Below are positions 17,218-47,574 of a stretch of 48,751 nt of DNA, piece by piece (within the stretch, counting starts at the first letter, position 1; every line of letters starts with the position of its first letter). This DNA comes from a virus. The position numbers were made by a program, and so were the translations under genes. The stretch is from positions 1 through 48,751 of IMG/VR virus record IMGVR_UViG_3300036820_000628. One strand, given 5' to 3'. The notes beneath the pieces are model-generated. The model saw only the letters and a list, made by a program, of their open reading frames with translations, was not told where the DNA came from and searched no databases.

Positions 17218-17354
17218 AGCTTCTTAAAACTTTTCCCTGCGACCCGGAGATCTCCAGTCGCTTCTCGGCGCGCCCGCGCAGGACGCATCAGCTCAGTAGG
17301 TTTCGCACCCACCCGAGCGGCAGCACCACAAATCACCTATTGGAGGTTTTCGAA
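17218..17354 (+). promoter_or_regulatory. 137-nt leader of the major capsid gene
   Basis: Non-coding leader ending in a strong GGAGG ribosome-binding site. It contains short GC-rich inverted repeats and a stretch near 17291-17315 that superficially resembles a tRNA D-arm. No -35/-10 pair is convincing. Its length suggests independent control of capsid expression. Confidence 0.4.
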
Positions 17355-18608
17355 ATGGATTTAAACGTCGAACTACGAACCGCGATCGAGGCTCTCGGCC
17401 GCAACTGGGAGGAATTCAAGGCTGCCGACGCGCAGAACAAGAAAGAGCGCGACGGCGCCCTTGAGGCCAAAATCGCCAAGCTGACCGAAGAAATCAGTAA
17501 GCAGCATGAAGCGCTGACGGCGATCGAAACGAAACAGAACCGGCCTGCGCTCTCGGGCGATCCCGAAGAGGCAAAGCTTGAGGTCAAGGCTCACGCGCAG
17601 TTTTCCCTGGAAATGTCCGGCCGTTCCGCCGGGCGAAGGACGCTGACGACCGACGAATATAAGTCGTTCCGCGAAGTGTTCCCGATCTATCTGCGGCACG
17701 ACAAAGACGTGATGGATCAGATTCAGGTCAAGGCGCTGTCGCTCGGAGGCGATCCGGAAGGCGGCTATTTCCTGACGCCGCCCGAGATCTCGAACCGCAT
17801 CACGAAACGCGTGTTCGAAACCACCCCGATGCGCGACATCGCGACCGTGCAGCCGATCGGCGCGCACGAGTTCAAGATTCCGCAGGATCCGAACACAGCC
17901 CTCAGCGGCGGCTGGACCGGGGAAACCACCACGCGGACAAACACCGGCACCGCCAACGTCGCGATGAAAACCATCACGGCCTTCGAGCAGTATGCAATGC
18001 CGGTCTGCAGCCAACAGCTCCTTGAGGACAGTTTCGTCGACATTGAAGCCTGGTATGCCGACAAAACCGCCGACATCATCGCGCGCACCGAGAACACCGC
18101 GTTCGTGAACGGCACCGGGGCCTCCCAGCCGCGTGGTTTCATGACCTATCCCTCGGGCACTAACTGGGGGCAGATCCAGCAGATAGGGTCCGGGACGTCC
18201 GGCGAGTTCACATATGCCGGGCTCCTGAATCTGATCACCTCGCTCAAAGAGCCCTACCAGCCGAACGCCAGCTTCGTGACCAAGCGCGCCAACATCGCGA
18301 GCGTCATGCTGATTCAGGATGGTAACGGCCGTTACATCTTCCAGCCGATCGTCGGCGGAAACTTCAACAACACGGCGCTGCTCGGATACAACCTGCGTTA
18401 CGGTAACGATATTCCTGCCGTTGGCGCAGGCACCCTCGCCATGGCGTTCGGCGATTTCAAGCGCGGATATGTGATCGTCGACCGCATCGGGATCAGCGTG
18501 CTTCGGGACGCCTACACGGCAAAACCGAACATCCTGTATTACACCCGCAAGCGGACCGGCGGCGACGTCGACGACTTCGACGCGATCAAGCTTCTGGTGC
18601 TCACGTAA
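17355..18608 (+). CDS. Major capsid protein, HK97 fold, 417 aa
   Basis: ATG 17355 follows a strong GGAGG site at 17342-17346; the in-frame TTG at 17340 is not needed. Residues 1-65 are a coiled coil (delta/scaffolding domain, removed by the prohead protease in HK97-like phages). The fold then shows GGYFLTPPEISNRI, the E-loop region, a TAFEQYAMPVCSQQLLEDS segment, AFVNGTGASQPRG and a C-terminal YVIVDRIGISVLRD. A 37-bp part of this gene (17985-18021) reappears in antisense at 43040-43076. A 137-bp leader precedes it. Confidence 0.95.
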   Translation: MDLNVELRTAIEALGRNWEEFKAADAQNKKERDGALEAKIAKLTEEISKQHEALTAIETKQNRPALSGDPEEAKLEVKAHAQFSLEMSGRSAGRRTLTTDEYKSFREVFPIYLRHDKDVMDQIQVKALSLGGDPEGGYFLTPPEISNRITKRVFETTPMRDIATVQPIGAHEFKIPQDPNTALSGGWTGETTTRTNTGTANVAMKTITAFEQYAMPVCSQQLLEDSFVDIEAWYADKTADIIARTENTAFVNGTGASQPRGFMTYPSGTNWGQIQQIGSGTSGEFTYAGLLNLITSLKEPYQPNASFVTKRANIASVMLIQDGNGRYIFQPIVGGNFNNTALLGYNLRYGNDIPAVGAGTLAMAFGDFKRGYVIVDRIGISVLRDAYTAKPNILYYTRKRTGGDVDDFDAIKLLVLT

Positions 18609-29268: not shown

Positions 29269-31680
29269 ATGCCCACGATTGAAGCCTGGAAGGAATCCGG
29301 GCTCGTCCAGATCAACGTCGTCCCAAAGCCTCTTGTCCTCTGCCAGATCACGGCCGTCGACGGCGACACCGTTTATCTCACCACCACACCGGAACTGGGA
29401 GGTGCCACTCGCGTCTATAACGGCAACACTTACCAGGCGCGCCTGCAGTCGAATCCGATCTCCCAGATCCAGGCACAATCTCCGGAAGGCTATGACATTC
29501 CCGGCTCGATCAATCTCGCGATCGCGGACGGCGATAACGCGATCTGGTCGTCGCACGCGAACGCGCACGGATGGCGCGGAGGGACGCTCACTGTCACGTT
29601 CGTCCTCTGGGATGCCCCGAGCGACACCTACTCGAGTAACTCCTACGTCTGGACGTTCATTCTCGATAAGCCAAATCTCGACGGTCCGGTAGTCACTGTC
29701 GCCGGCCAAGCGCGGCAGAGCATGACGCGCCTCAACGTCCCGAATACGCCGCGTCAAAACCGCTGCTCGCATTCGTTTCCAATGACCGCCGCGCAGCGGC
29801 TCGACGGGCTGCTCAACCCGACCTCGCCCTATTATGCGTGCGGCTATTGCCCGAACCCCTCAGCCGACTCCGGAGGCGCCTATATCGGACCCGGCGCCGG
29901 CAATCAAGCGACTGCAAATCTGACGAATCCGAACGGCTCGGCCTTAACCGATGCCTCCGGCAACTTCGTTATGTGCGACTTCACGCGCTCATGTGGCTCG
30001 CGCAGCTCCACGTCTACCCAGGGATGTATTCCTCGGATGGGGAATTACGCGGGAAACCCAGCCGGCGCAACCGCGTCCGCAGCGGACGGCGATATCACGC
30101 GAGACACGTCAGGGCGCGCGACCGCGCGTTTCGACGGCGACACGTATCTTGCGCCCCCTGGCTATTCGGGACGGCAATTCGTCAATCCGAGCGCAGGCAA
30201 GATATACGGGTTCAACGTACCGAACCCGCCCACTGGCCAGACCTACTACAACCAGGGTTACGGTGTGCAGTGGGTTGATGCTACAGTCCTCGAGCCCGTC
30301 AGCGATGTCAACTCATATCGCGCCGAATGCATCGTCTGCATCGCGCCGATCGGCCCCGTCACTATTATCAAAGTCCTTGTCAATGGCGTCGAAGTCACGT
30401 TAAACAACTCCGACGCGCTTTTCACCTACTACATCATCTCGGCCGGCGGCCGCAACGGAGCAGTCAGCCTTGATTCTTCCTACTACCAGGGGACGGGCGA
30501 TCCACACGGTTCGCTCTGCTGCATCGAGATTGTGGTCCCGTTCGAGTTACAGGCCTCGGGGTCGATCGCGAGCGTCCAGGTCCTCGTGCAGTTTCCGCAG
30601 TGCCTCCATGCGATGCCGATCTCCACGTCAGCGTCGAGCGGCGGCAGCTCGGCGACAATCGATTTTCCCGGCGGGATACCGAATAACGACTGCGCCGGCA
30701 ATCCGCCCTTTTCTGTCTACGTCACCGGGAACAGTTTCATTCCGGACGGGGCTTACGAGCTTTCCGGCCGGACGTCGAGCTCGATCACGCTGGTTGGCTC
30801 GTTCGCGACCGGGAGTGGCGCGGGGGGATCCTGCTTCTACTACCCGCTGAACGGCGCGGACGCCGCGATGGTCGACGCGGCCGGCGCGGCGGCGGCTAAT
30901 CCCGTTTGGGCGCTCATGGACCTCATGACGTGGGGGCCGTTCACCGTTGCCGATTTCGACACCCTCACCTGGTACAACGCGGCGCAGATCTGCGCCGCGC
31001 AGATTAACTACGTCGACATCAATAACAATCCGGCGTCGCACGCTCGCTATCGCTGCTCGTTCGTTCTGACTACGGATAAGCGCCAGTCGATGGCCAAGGC
31101 GGTGCTGGGCCTGCGAAACTGCGCGGGCATCATTCTGGCGCGGAATCCGATCAACGGCCTGATTCAGTGCTTCATCGAGCAAACTCTCGCCGATCAACAA
31201 CCGGCCGCGATCCCAGGCTCGAACTACAACACGCCGGTAGCTTCCATCACAGCCGCTGGTATCACATCCGGCATAGTCGGCTACCTGGCTTATCTGTTCG
31301 ACGGCGCGGGCTCTATCGAAACAGGCACGTTCAAGTTGGGCGGCCGATCCCTTAACGACACGCCGAACACCGTAGCGTTTCCATTCCAGGACAGCGCCAA
31401 CGTCTGGGTGCAGGACAGCTGCACGACCATCGACCCGAACGGCTATGTCACTTCCGGCAACCAGGAAATTGAGGCGGCGCTGCAGATACTCGGCGTTGAG
31501 AACTTCGACCAGGCGACCCGAATGTCGAATCTCGGGCTCGCCAAGTCGCTCTACGGTAATTCGCGCTTCGACGCCGGCGGCACGGAACTGCCGACGTTTC
31601 GCACGACGGTAAAGGCGGCGCACCTCGCGAGCCGGGTCGGATTCATCTGCGGCATCATCTATGCGCAAAGGAATCTCTGA
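29269..31680 (+). CDS. Tail tip / baseplate hub protein, 803 aa
   Basis: The N-terminal 170 residues look like a hub adaptor (TVYLTTTPELGG, GSINLAIADGDNAIW, VWTFILDKPNLDGPVVTVAG and a RQNRCSHSFP Cys). A long central part has many Cys (FVMCDFTRSCGS, YACGYC) and DGDTYLAPPGYSG, probably a carbohydrate-binding or disulfide-stabilised region, rare for a cytoplasmically assembled protein. The C-terminal half is beta and helical (VGYLAYLFDGAGS). It probably contacts the host first. It overlaps the next gene by one base. Confidence 0.65.
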   Translation: MPTIEAWKESGLVQINVVPKPLVLCQITAVDGDTVYLTTTPELGGATRVYNGNTYQARLQSNPISQIQAQSPEGYDIPGSINLAIADGDNAIWSSHANAHGWRGGTLTVTFVLWDAPSDTYSSNSYVWTFILDKPNLDGPVVTVAGQARQSMTRLNVPNTPRQNRCSHSFPMTAAQRLDGLLNPTSPYYACGYCPNPSADSGGAYIGPGAGNQATANLTNPNGSALTDASGNFVMCDFTRSCGSRSSTSTQGCIPRMGNYAGNPAGATASAADGDITRDTSGRATARFDGDTYLAPPGYSGRQFVNPSAGKIYGFNVPNPPTGQTYYNQGYGVQWVDATVLEPVSDVNSYRAECIVCIAPIGPVTIIKVLVNGVEVTLNNSDALFTYYIISAGGRNGAVSLDSSYYQGTGDPHGSLCCIEIVVPFELQASGSIASVQVLVQFPQCLHAMPISTSASSGGSSATIDFPGGIPNNDCAGNPPFSVYVTGNSFIPDGAYELSGRTSSSITLVGSFATGSGAGGSCFYYPLNGADAAMVDAAGAAAANPVWALMDLMTWGPFTVADFDTLTWYNAAQICAAQINYVDINNNPASHARYRCSFVLTTDKRQSMAKAVLGLRNCAGIILARNPINGLIQCFIEQTLADQQPAAIPGSNYNTPVASITAAGITSGIVGYLAYLFDGAGSIETGTFKLGGRSLNDTPNTVAFPFQDSANVWVQDSCTTIDPNGYVTSGNQEIEAALQILGVENFDQATRMSNLGLAKSLYGNSRFDAGGTELPTFRTTVKAAHLASRVGFICGIIYAQRNL

Positions 31681-42676: not shown

Positions 42677-42904
42677 CTAACAATTTGGCATTACTCCGCA
42701 GTCGCGCAAATGAGTACGCATGGCGACAACTCCACACCGATAGCCACATCCACGCGGGCAGGCGATCAGTTTACGCGGACGGCCTGCGCCGGGCTGAGCG
42801 CCGCCTGTCGGCGTTGAACGCCTTGCGCTCGATATCTGTGCGGCGCGGGACATCAGCCACTCCTCGGATATGTGGTGCCCGCACGGAAGCTGGATACGCG
42901 TCAT
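42677..42904 (-). CDS. Zinc-finger protein with GRPRK hook, 75 aa
   Basis: ATG at 42904 overlaps the stop of the upstream gene (ATGA). Residues 1-30 are like a Cys/His start (LPCGHHISEEWLMSRAAQIS) then GAGRPRKLIACPRGCGYRCG and MRTHLRDCGVM, giving a C2HC finger next to an AT-hook-like GRPRK. A similar finger occurs in the 37-residue protein at 21713. Probably nucleic-acid binding. It ends the reverse-strand operon. Confidence 0.65.
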   Translation of the reverse strand: MTRIQLPCGHHISEEWLMSRAAQISSARRSTPTGGAQPGAGRPRKLIACPRGCGYRCGVVAMRTHLRDCGVMPNC

Positions 42905-43173
42905 TGTGCCTCGCGCCTCCGGCGCTCCTGATTAGCGACACGCCGCTCGTGACAGGAGGCCGGCCCGTGCTGCGATCGCAGGCCACCGGGCGTCCCGTCA
43001 ACCCGGATACACGGATAGCCAATCCGCGCTCCGCATTTGGAGCAGTATGCAATGCCGGTCTGCAGCCAACAGCTCCGGATACACGGATAGCCAATCCGCG
43101 CTCCGCATTTGGGGCAGTCGATTTCGGCGACCGCCCGCTGCTCTCTATTCCGGCTGGGTCCTACTCCCGGCAT
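42901..43173 (-). CDS. Zinc-knuckle protein with a duplicated motif, 90 aa
   Basis: ATG at 43173 follows the stop of the upstream gene immediately. The sequence holds two copies of KCGARIGYPCIR (about residues 22-33 and 46-57), separated by SCWLQTGIAYCS. A 72-bp insertion adds 24 residues and keeps the frame. The segment between the repeats is antisense of the major capsid gene. Without the insertion the protein is a usual CPxCGA-type zinc knuckle with an RSQHGPASCHERR tail, known in phages. Its role is unknown. Confidence 0.65.
   Translation of the reverse strand: MPGVGPSRNREQRAVAEIDCPKCGARIGYPCIRSCWLQTGIAYCSKCGARIGYPCIRVDGTPGGLRSQHGPASCHERRVANQERRRREAQ
43003..43112. repeat. 38-bp direct repeats flanking a 34-bp segment of capsid-gene origin
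   Basis: Copies at 43003-43040 and 43075-43112 are identical over 38 bp, at a 72-bp period. The sequence in between (43041-43074, match extends from 43040 to 43076) is identical over 37 bp to the major capsid gene at 17985-18021. Read from the reverse-strand gene it is capsid antisense. The repeat has an internal CGGAT-N5-ATCCG inverted repeat. Five bases (ACTGC on the minus strand) are shared by the original gene and the capsid antisense at one junction. Confidence 0.9.
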
Positions 43174-44096: not shown

Positions 44097-44627
44097 TCAG
44101 AACTTCCGGCGCCTCCGCGTTTCGTGCTCCTCGCTGAGCACCAGGCGAACTGCGCTCGTGCTCAATCCAAATACGGCGCCGATCCGTTCCTCCGACGCGC
44201 CATCGTTGAACAGTTCTACCATGCAGTCGCCCGGCAGATGAAGAGCGCGCGCGGCCACGTTTTTCCCGCACGTGTTGCAGATGTATGCGGCGCTGAAACC
44301 GTCGGCGGTCTGCTGCAGCCCACGCAGCGCCGGATTTCGGATCAGCAGCGCAGTATCGTAGCCGAGCAGCGCGTCGCCGCTGACGCCGAGCGCAAGGCAT
44401 AGCCGCTCGAGCGTCGAGACTCTCATATCCTGGGCCAAACCGCCTTCGATCACGTTCAGCGTCGACCGGGATATGCCGGCGGCCGCGGCGAGCTCCGTCT
44501 GGTTCACCCCGCGCAACTCGCGAAACCTGACGATCCGGCGCGGCAAAACGGCCAGAAATGTAGCACCGACGCGTCTCGCGACCGGTGGGACGGACTGCGC
44601 TATTGGCTTTCGAGGCTCCGCGTCCAT
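44097..44627 (-). CDS. XRE-family repressor with C-terminal zinc and HTH-like region, 176 aa
   Basis: XRE HTH at about residues 28-95: RFRELRGVNQTELAAAAGIS, STLNVIEGGL, TLERLCLALGVSGDALLG. A C-terminal part has YICNTCGKN, a Cys pair with a GDC Cys, and a further HTH-like helix (ASEERIGAVFGLSTSAVRLV). It lacks a LexA/CI-type cleavage domain, so induction would not be through RecA cleavage. It faces a sigma-like gene across only 11 bases: both promoters must lie inside the neighbour's coding region. Probably the lysogeny repressor. Confidence 0.7.
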   Translation of the reverse strand: MDAEPRKPIAQSVPPVARRVGATFLAVLPRRIVRFRELRGVNQTELAAAAGISRSTLNVIEGGLAQDMRVSTLERLCLALGVSGDALLGYDTALLIRNPALRGLQQTADGFSAAYICNTCGKNVAARALHLPGDCMVELFNDGASEERIGAVFGLSTSAVRLVLSEEHETRRRRKF

Positions 44628-44638
44628 ACCTTCAATGT

Positions 44639-45184
44639 ATGCTTCTTCACAAACAAAACGAGGTTACGGTTCTCGATGCGCCCCGTACCCTGCCGGAGGA
44701 AATTTACAGTGCCCTTTCTCACAGTATTCCCGCAATCGCGCGGCGCGTCAAACGACGTTGTCCCATGACGGTCGAGACGGAGGATCTCGAACAGGTCGGG
44801 CGCGGCGCTTTATGGCAGGTATGCGCGGCCCTGGAATCTTACGCGAAGATGCGGATCCGCGGCGCCATGCTCGATTCGATTCGCGGCACCGAGTTCCGCG
44901 AGGCCGCGCGCGAGCGCGACGCAGTCCGGACCGACGAGCTGCACAGCGATCCGCCCAGCGGATCCGGCTCCGCCACCAGCTGGCGACCGGAGGCCGCGGA
45001 CCCGTTTCTTACGCGCGCGATCGCGCGGCTCGGCGGCCGCCAGGCAGATGTGATCGAACTGCGTTTTCGGATGGGATGCTCACGGCCGGAGGCTGGAGAA
45101 CGCATCGGGATCTCGCCGCACGCCGTCGGGCGCGCGGAGCGGGCGGCAATTAAGGCGCTGCGGGGAGTGCTGAAGGCGGCGTGA
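44639..45184 (+). CDS. Second sigma-70-like protein, 181 aa
   Basis: ATG 44639 is preferred because the longer frame overlaps the divergent repressor start. Region 2 is seen as IPAIARRVKRRCPMTVETED, LEQVGRGALWQVCAALESYA, KMRIRGAMLDSIRG, and region 4 as AIARLGGRQADVIELRFRMG, CSRPEAGERIGISPHAVGRA. Thus this is a small two-domain sigma factor, similar in type to that at 7572-8222. Its place beside the repressor suggests a switch gene that turns on lytic transcription. It converges with a reverse gene six bases away. Confidence 0.75.
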   Translation: MLLHKQNEVTVLDAPRTLPEEIYSALSHSIPAIARRVKRRCPMTVETEDLEQVGRGALWQVCAALESYAKMRIRGAMLDSIRGTEFREAARERDAVRTDELHSDPPSGSGSATSWRPEAADPFLTRAIARLGGRQADVIELRFRMGCSRPEAGERIGISPHAVGRAERAAIKALRGVLKAA

Positions 45185-46772: not shown

Positions 46773-46999
46773 TCAACCTTTCGATTTCCGTCGCGCCGGT
46801 TCCGCAGGGATCCACGCATCGGGCCGTGATTCAGGTCAGCGTCCACGAAGACCCGAATTTCCCGTCGCCGCGGGAAGTGCGTATGCCTGCCTGCTACACC
46901 GAGGAGGACTCGATGCGGGATGCGCTGAACTATGTCCAGCAGGAATGGAAACGTCGGCAGCACAGTAAGCTGTTCGGCCCCCAAGGCGGTGAGCGATGA
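46769..46999 (+). CDS. Hypothetical early protein, 76 aa
   Basis: ATG 46769 overlaps the previous stop; a longer frame starting at 46634 lies out of phase inside it and is ignored. The sequence looks like two strands (NLSISVAPVPQGSTHRAVIQ) and a helix (TEEDSMRDALNYVQQEWKRR). No family is recognised. It overlaps the Gp157 gene by ATGA. Confidence 0.55.
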   Translation: MINLSISVAPVPQGSTHRAVIQVSVHEDPNFPSPREVRMPACYTEEDSMRDALNYVQQEWKRRQHSKLFGPQGGER

Positions 47000-47574
47000 G
47001 CGCGGCCGCCGTCGCCGGACCCCAGTTGGCTCTCGTCCCGAAACGCTCACTGTTCGCGCACGTTCGCGAGGTCGAAGATATCGCCGATCTGGTCGACCAG
47101 CTCGATCGCGCCGGCGAACTGGATCCGGATACGGCCGAGCTGCTCTCCGCCACTCTCTGCGCCTCGGTCGCCGGCACGAAAGACAAGATCGATCGCAGCT
47201 GCGCTGTCGTCGCGGCTTTCGAAGCCGGCGAAGCGGCCGCAGCCGCCGAGCGGGAGCGCCTGGACGCGCGGGCGAAGCGCTTCGCCCGGCTGCGTGAGCG
47301 CCTCGAGGCGTATCTGCTCGCCGTGCTGGTCGCATCGAACCTCGATCGCATCGACGGGAACACGTCCTCGATCGCGCGGCGCCGCAATCCGCCGAAGATC
47401 GAGATCCTCGACGAGAGCGCGATCCCCTGGGAATTCATGCGGCTGCCGGATCCGCCGCCTCCGCCCGCGGCGGTTCCCGATAAGAGCGCGATCAAAATCG
47501 CGCTGAAAGCCGACGCCGCATGCGTTCCGGGCGCGCGCCTGATGCCCGACAACTACCGGCTGGTGAGGAGCTGA
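46996..47574 (+). CDS. Siphovirus Gp157-like protein, 192 aa
   Basis: Gp157 hallmarks: coiled coil (LRERLEAYLLAVLVASNLDR), IDGNTSSIARRRNPPKIEIL, a DESAIPWEFMR segment and DKSAIKIALKADAACVPGAR near the C-terminus. In other phages this family is encoded in early and recombination operons, and Gp157 of the streptococcal phage Sfi21 was connected with phage resistance. Function is not established. Place in this early operon is consistent. Confidence 0.85.
   Translation: MSAAAVAGPQLALVPKRSLFAHVREVEDIADLVDQLDRAGELDPDTAELLSATLCASVAGTKDKIDRSCAVVAAFEAGEAAAAAERERLDARAKRFARLRERLEAYLLAVLVASNLDRIDGNTSSIARRRNPPKIEILDESAIPWEFMRLPDPPPPPAAVPDKSAIKIALKADAACVPGARLMPDNYRLVRS

Follow-up and report, generated by a model that had tools for sequence, protein, structure and literature searches.

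The zinc-finger gene at 42901–43173 (minus strand) of this phage genome contains an exact duplication of 38 bp, and the two copies enclose an exact copy of part of the phage's own major capsid gene. The reading frame is kept, and the 72 extra bases are absent from a related phage. The sequence suggests that they probably arose in one mutational step, a tandem duplication combined with a templated insertion, when a polymerase switched template twice while the phage genome was being replicated or repaired. The result looks like the trace of one error in DNA copying, a mutational scar that is ordinary in kind, unusually clean and in-frame in its outcome. The initial annotation had proposed a template switch between distant regions of the phage genome, and this was the best-supported reading in our analysis, given the relative without the 72 bp, the phage's own capsid allele as donor and some homology at both junctions.

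The window (the whole stretch of 48,751 nucleotides that was analysed) is an IMG/VR-type virus record classed as linear. The exact-match computation over the whole window showed that 43003–43040 and 43075–43112 are identical in 38 of 38 positions. Both copies lie within the zinc-knuckle coding sequence on the minus strand, the first being the gene-downstream copy and the second the gene-upstream copy, which is followed on the plus strand by the original GGCAGT. The repeat extends to 44 bp with one mismatch (A at 43041, G at 43113). The 34-bp segment between the copies (43041–43074) appears to be capsid-templated. Together with the junction bases, 43040–43076 was identical to 17985–18021 on the same strand (37/37), and BLAST reported the match as 40 bp at 97.5%. 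These coordinates of the repeats, the spacer and the capsid match agreed exactly with the initial annotation on recomputation. Its description of the capsid segment as antisense holds for the zinc-finger gene, since that gene is read from the minus strand and the capsid gene from the plus strand. Donor and recipient are 25 kb apart in the genome. By a rough estimate, the chance of a 37-bp identity in 48.7 kb is about 1e-13.

The 38-bp and 37-bp pairs were the only non-palindromic exact repeats of at least 20 bp in the window, apart from the terminal tandem array. The remaining exact repeats of this length were that array, which has a 12-bp based unit, and two perfect palindromes. The array (1–208) gives a DUF6745 protein (31–834) an initial run of QL.SQL repeats, and this gene may be longer because the array lies at the contig end. 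One palindrome of 22 bp is located at 30978–30999 within the tail gene 29269–31680, with an estimated chance expectation of about 0.01, and the other of 20 bp at 47269–47288 within the Siphovirus Gp157-like gene 46996–47574. In a comparison set of 91 sequences (the window and related phage loci, 1.18 Mb), nine dispersed exact repeats of at least 22 bp were found. The capsid/zinc-finger case was the longest, and all others were at most 31 bp. Only here in this set did a direct repeat enclose an exact copy of a distant sequence while the flanks were clean and unique; the other candidates for such a compound were repeat-rich tracts or short matches. A related phage contig in the set (L005) carried an inverted 22-bp repeat, CGTCCTGAGCCTGTCGAAGGAT, at 1780 and 2873, which resembles a dispersed element common in some bacterial genomes.

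The donor segment (17985–18021, plus strand) lies within the HK97-type major capsid gene (17340–18608, plus strand; PF05065 Phage_capsid, E = 1.4e-65) and codes for EQYAMPVCSQQL, a conserved stretch. Across about 90 related capsid loci, leaving aside the phage's own, no sequence came closer to the 37-mer than 11 mismatches. The 37-mer carries the TGC codon of the phage's own capsid gene, where the nearest relative (L004, capsid 74% identical) has valine. Since the 37-mer matches the phage's own capsid allele and that of no relative, the sequence comparison identifies the capsid gene of this lineage as the donor. The same match indicates that the event is lineage-specific and that no difference has accumulated since. 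The capsid gene as recipient instead of donor was ruled out, because the stretch is conserved in related capsids.

The recipient gene codes for 90 amino acids (66 without the 72-bp insertion) and was annotated as a putative DNA-binding phage zinc finger of PF24623 (Phage_zn_bind_8). The protein scored 33.6 bits against this family as found and 26.0 bits with the 72 bp removed; the curated cut-off of 24 bits is passed by its two half-matches together. The upstream part is a truncated knuckle (profile positions 5–27), and the downstream part covers most of the domain (profile positions 14–52). Thus the protein is a member of the family and differs from it by the second, truncated knuckle made by the insertion. 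The 38-bp repeat codes for CxxCGARIGYPCIR, and the 72 bp adds 24 residues, SCWLQTGIAYCSKCGARIGYPCIR. Translation therefore bears out that 24 residues were gained without a frame shift. The zinc knuckle had been described as duplicated, and a second CxxC knuckle is indeed present in truncated form. Any benefit of the added residues to the phage is hypothetical. The next gene (42677–42904, minus strand, 75 amino acids, no family) and the recipient gene overlap by 4 nt (ATGA), and an out-of-frame insert could therefore disturb the next gene too. In the same part of the window, a sigma-factor-like gene (44585–45184, plus strand) overlaps the start of an HTH regulator gene (44097–44627, minus strand), which may be a regulatory switch region.

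The only detected homologue of the recipient gene was found in L003 (IMG/VR 3300036893_000156). It has one knuckle and lacks the 72-bp segment, which answers the suggestion that relatives be checked for its absence. The L003 protein aligned without gaps to the recipient protein minus the 24 residues (35/56 identical), whereas a 24-residue gap was needed for the protein as found. On the basis of this gap-free alignment with one relative, and of the donor logic, the short form is probably ancestral. Over 54 codons, the two genes had 17, 11 and 32 differences at codon positions 1, 2 and 3. Third positions vary most, indicating that the gene, including the repeat region, evolves as coding sequence. 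No match of the zinc-finger protein was found in genome_contigs or in nine capsid relatives, and neither the protein nor the region had a match in the named phages. The only viral match besides L003, L014, was unrelated.

The junctions were then compared with random joins. At junction 1 donor and target share CC (GG on the minus strand). At junction 2 the exact overlap at the breakpoint is one base (G), located inside a 10-bp stretch TT(C/G)G(A/G)GCAGT in which 8 of 10 positions are alike. The donor reads GAGCAGT and the target GGGCAGT, and the mismatch would be a T:G wobble on the minus strand. Of the shared bases reported in the initial annotation, GG stands as described, whereas ACTGC (GCAGT on the plus strand) is not a contiguous overlap but lies one mismatch away from the breakpoint. 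Random joins in the genome reached the observed scores with P = 0.028 for the 8/10 side and P = 0.20 for the CC side (joint 0.0056; sum 0.022). The claim that junction microhomology fits template switching was supported in part: both sides have some homology, which is weaker than had been stated. This homology gives modest support to copying with short pairing over blind joining, and not overwhelmingly so. The anchors are in opposite order, GRGCAGT...CC in the donor and CC...GRGCAGT in the target. This reversed order implies that the growing strand would re-enter before its exit point, and such backward re-entry may produce both the insertion and the 38-bp duplication at once.

We infer that the event took place in the phage rather than in the tube, and we propose the following strand and polymerase steps. 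A growing minus-strand end would copy the zinc-finger gene to ...TATCCGG and detach. The detached end may pair through its GG with the capsid gene, located elsewhere in the genome or on a second molecule, and copy it for about 34–37 nt. The strand would then return to the zinc-finger gene, re-pair there at ACTGC(T/C)C, about 40–50 nt behind the exit point, and copy the same 38 nt again to give 72 extra bases in frame. In the resulting 90-residue protein, the original domain would be preceded by a second CxxC knuckle. MMBIR has been put forward on the basis of rearrangements in E. coli and humans with 2–15 bp of microhomology and complex junctions (PMC2621351). The present case resembles FoSTeS/MMBIR-type templated insertions in its short exact distant copy beside a local duplication and in the short partial homology at the joins (PMC2621351). 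It differs from them in being phage-borne, very short at 37 bp, directly oriented and placed within a coding gene whose frame is kept. A phage-encoded PolA-family polymerase was rejected as the culprit, with no PF00476 match in the record.

Hairpins are expected to release nascent ends, and the minus strand of the duplicated unit folds into a hairpin (z = -3.38 with RNA energies, -2.55 with DNA energies). It ranked in the top 2.4% of all 38-mers by RNA energies and in the top 8% by DNA energies. In a genome this GC-rich, hairpins of that kind are not unusual, and a nearby 38-mer folds better, so the hairpin as a proven trigger was set aside; as a trigger of the template switch it is only suggestive. 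The L003 stretch that was folded is not the exact counterpart of the repeat and gives no control for the hairpin.

The same structure could have been made in the tube if a whole-genome amplification or library polymerase had jumped from the zinc-finger gene to the capsid gene and back, and the assembler had kept the product. We consider this unlikely. The record is of IMG/VR type and so was probably assembled from environmental reads, and with 37/37 identity the insert could be brand new. Chimeras of MDA arise by the same template-switch chemistry; 85% of them are inverted and 15% direct, and the direct ones mostly join sites more than 10 kb apart (PMC1855051). The join observed here is direct and spans more than 10 kb, as in the direct MDA chimeras, but this is the orientation of the minority (PMC1855051). 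Moreover, assemblers join sequences at shared k-mers and not at 1–2 bp, so chimeric molecules would need to have dominated the coverage. Two successive direct jumps returning to one locus, with the frame kept and no stops, are also unlikely for a random artefact.

Instead of a template switch by a polymerase, a break or gap might have taken up a small piece of single-stranded capsid DNA, either by short-patch double illegitimate recombination or by end joining with filler. Such fragment-capture events leave small ectopic insertions flanked on each side by microhomology, which the insert resembles. Short-patch double illegitimate recombination in Acinetobacter baylyi similarly involves a small intragenomic piece and two microhomologies. 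However, that process replaces target bases, whereas here the anchors are reversed and 38 bp is duplicated. With anchors in opposite order in donor and target, simple annealing would not replace a patch, and the duplication requires a staggered break or a backward jump. This origin is therefore very doubtful.

An equally doubtful origin is off-target integration, in which host Cas1-Cas2 put 34–35 bp of phage DNA at a repeat-like site and staggered cuts duplicated 37–38 bp, giving a 'neo-CRISPR'. The sizes fit repeat and spacer lengths, the same geometry would be expected, and the duplicated unit forms a hairpin. TTC, a type I-C PAM, flanks the donor at 17982–17984. This means little, since many PAMs exist and the other flank offers AAG on the minus strand. 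The junction homology would be a coincidence, and the target is ordinary coding sequence with an L003 homologue that has no insert. A Cas1 search of the 48,751-base record was negative (control positive in 9 of 14 genomes), and the region had no match in Rfam. Non-canonical insertion outside arrays is described with overexpressed Cas1-Cas2 in the work of Nivala 2018 as cited in PMC11788318. It is highly improbable that, in nature, host Cas1-Cas2 placed a spacer taken from the phage itself in one of the phage's coding genes, creating a neo-CRISPR unit with one spacer directed at the phage capsid and extending the protein in frame.

The repeat-spacer-repeat had also been likened to a one-spacer CRISPR unit. 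This reading was rejected, because the repeat is coding and single-copy in L003, no Cas1 was found in the record and Rfam gave no match. As the initial annotation had noted, the repeat encodes part of a protein family: it codes for part of the PF24623 protein and is conserved as protein in L003. Its statement that cas genes are absent was upheld for Cas1, the family searched. No exact match to the 20-base repeat core was found in viral_contigs. Virus-borne mini-CRISPR arrays share with this case the repeat-spacer-repeat form, a phage-matching spacer and no cas genes nearby (PMC6858448). Those arrays are intergenic, have repeats common with host arrays, in several cases have leaders, and target related viruses (PMC6858448). 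In contrast, the repeat here is protein-coding instead of intergenic and single-copy in L003, and the match is to the phage itself; cas genes within the element are not required of mini-arrays, and no Cas1 was found here. Reverse transcription or a diversity-generating retroelement was rejected, as no reverse transcriptase (PF00078) match was found in the window.

The established picture is unchanged by the capsid-to-zinc-finger insertion. If natural, it is a very clean and recent example of new phage protein sequence from the reverse strand of another gene, in which the donor, the recipient and both joins are all readable. It would also show that a short repeat-spacer-repeat whose spacer matches its own genome can arise without CRISPR, which is a trap for array finders.
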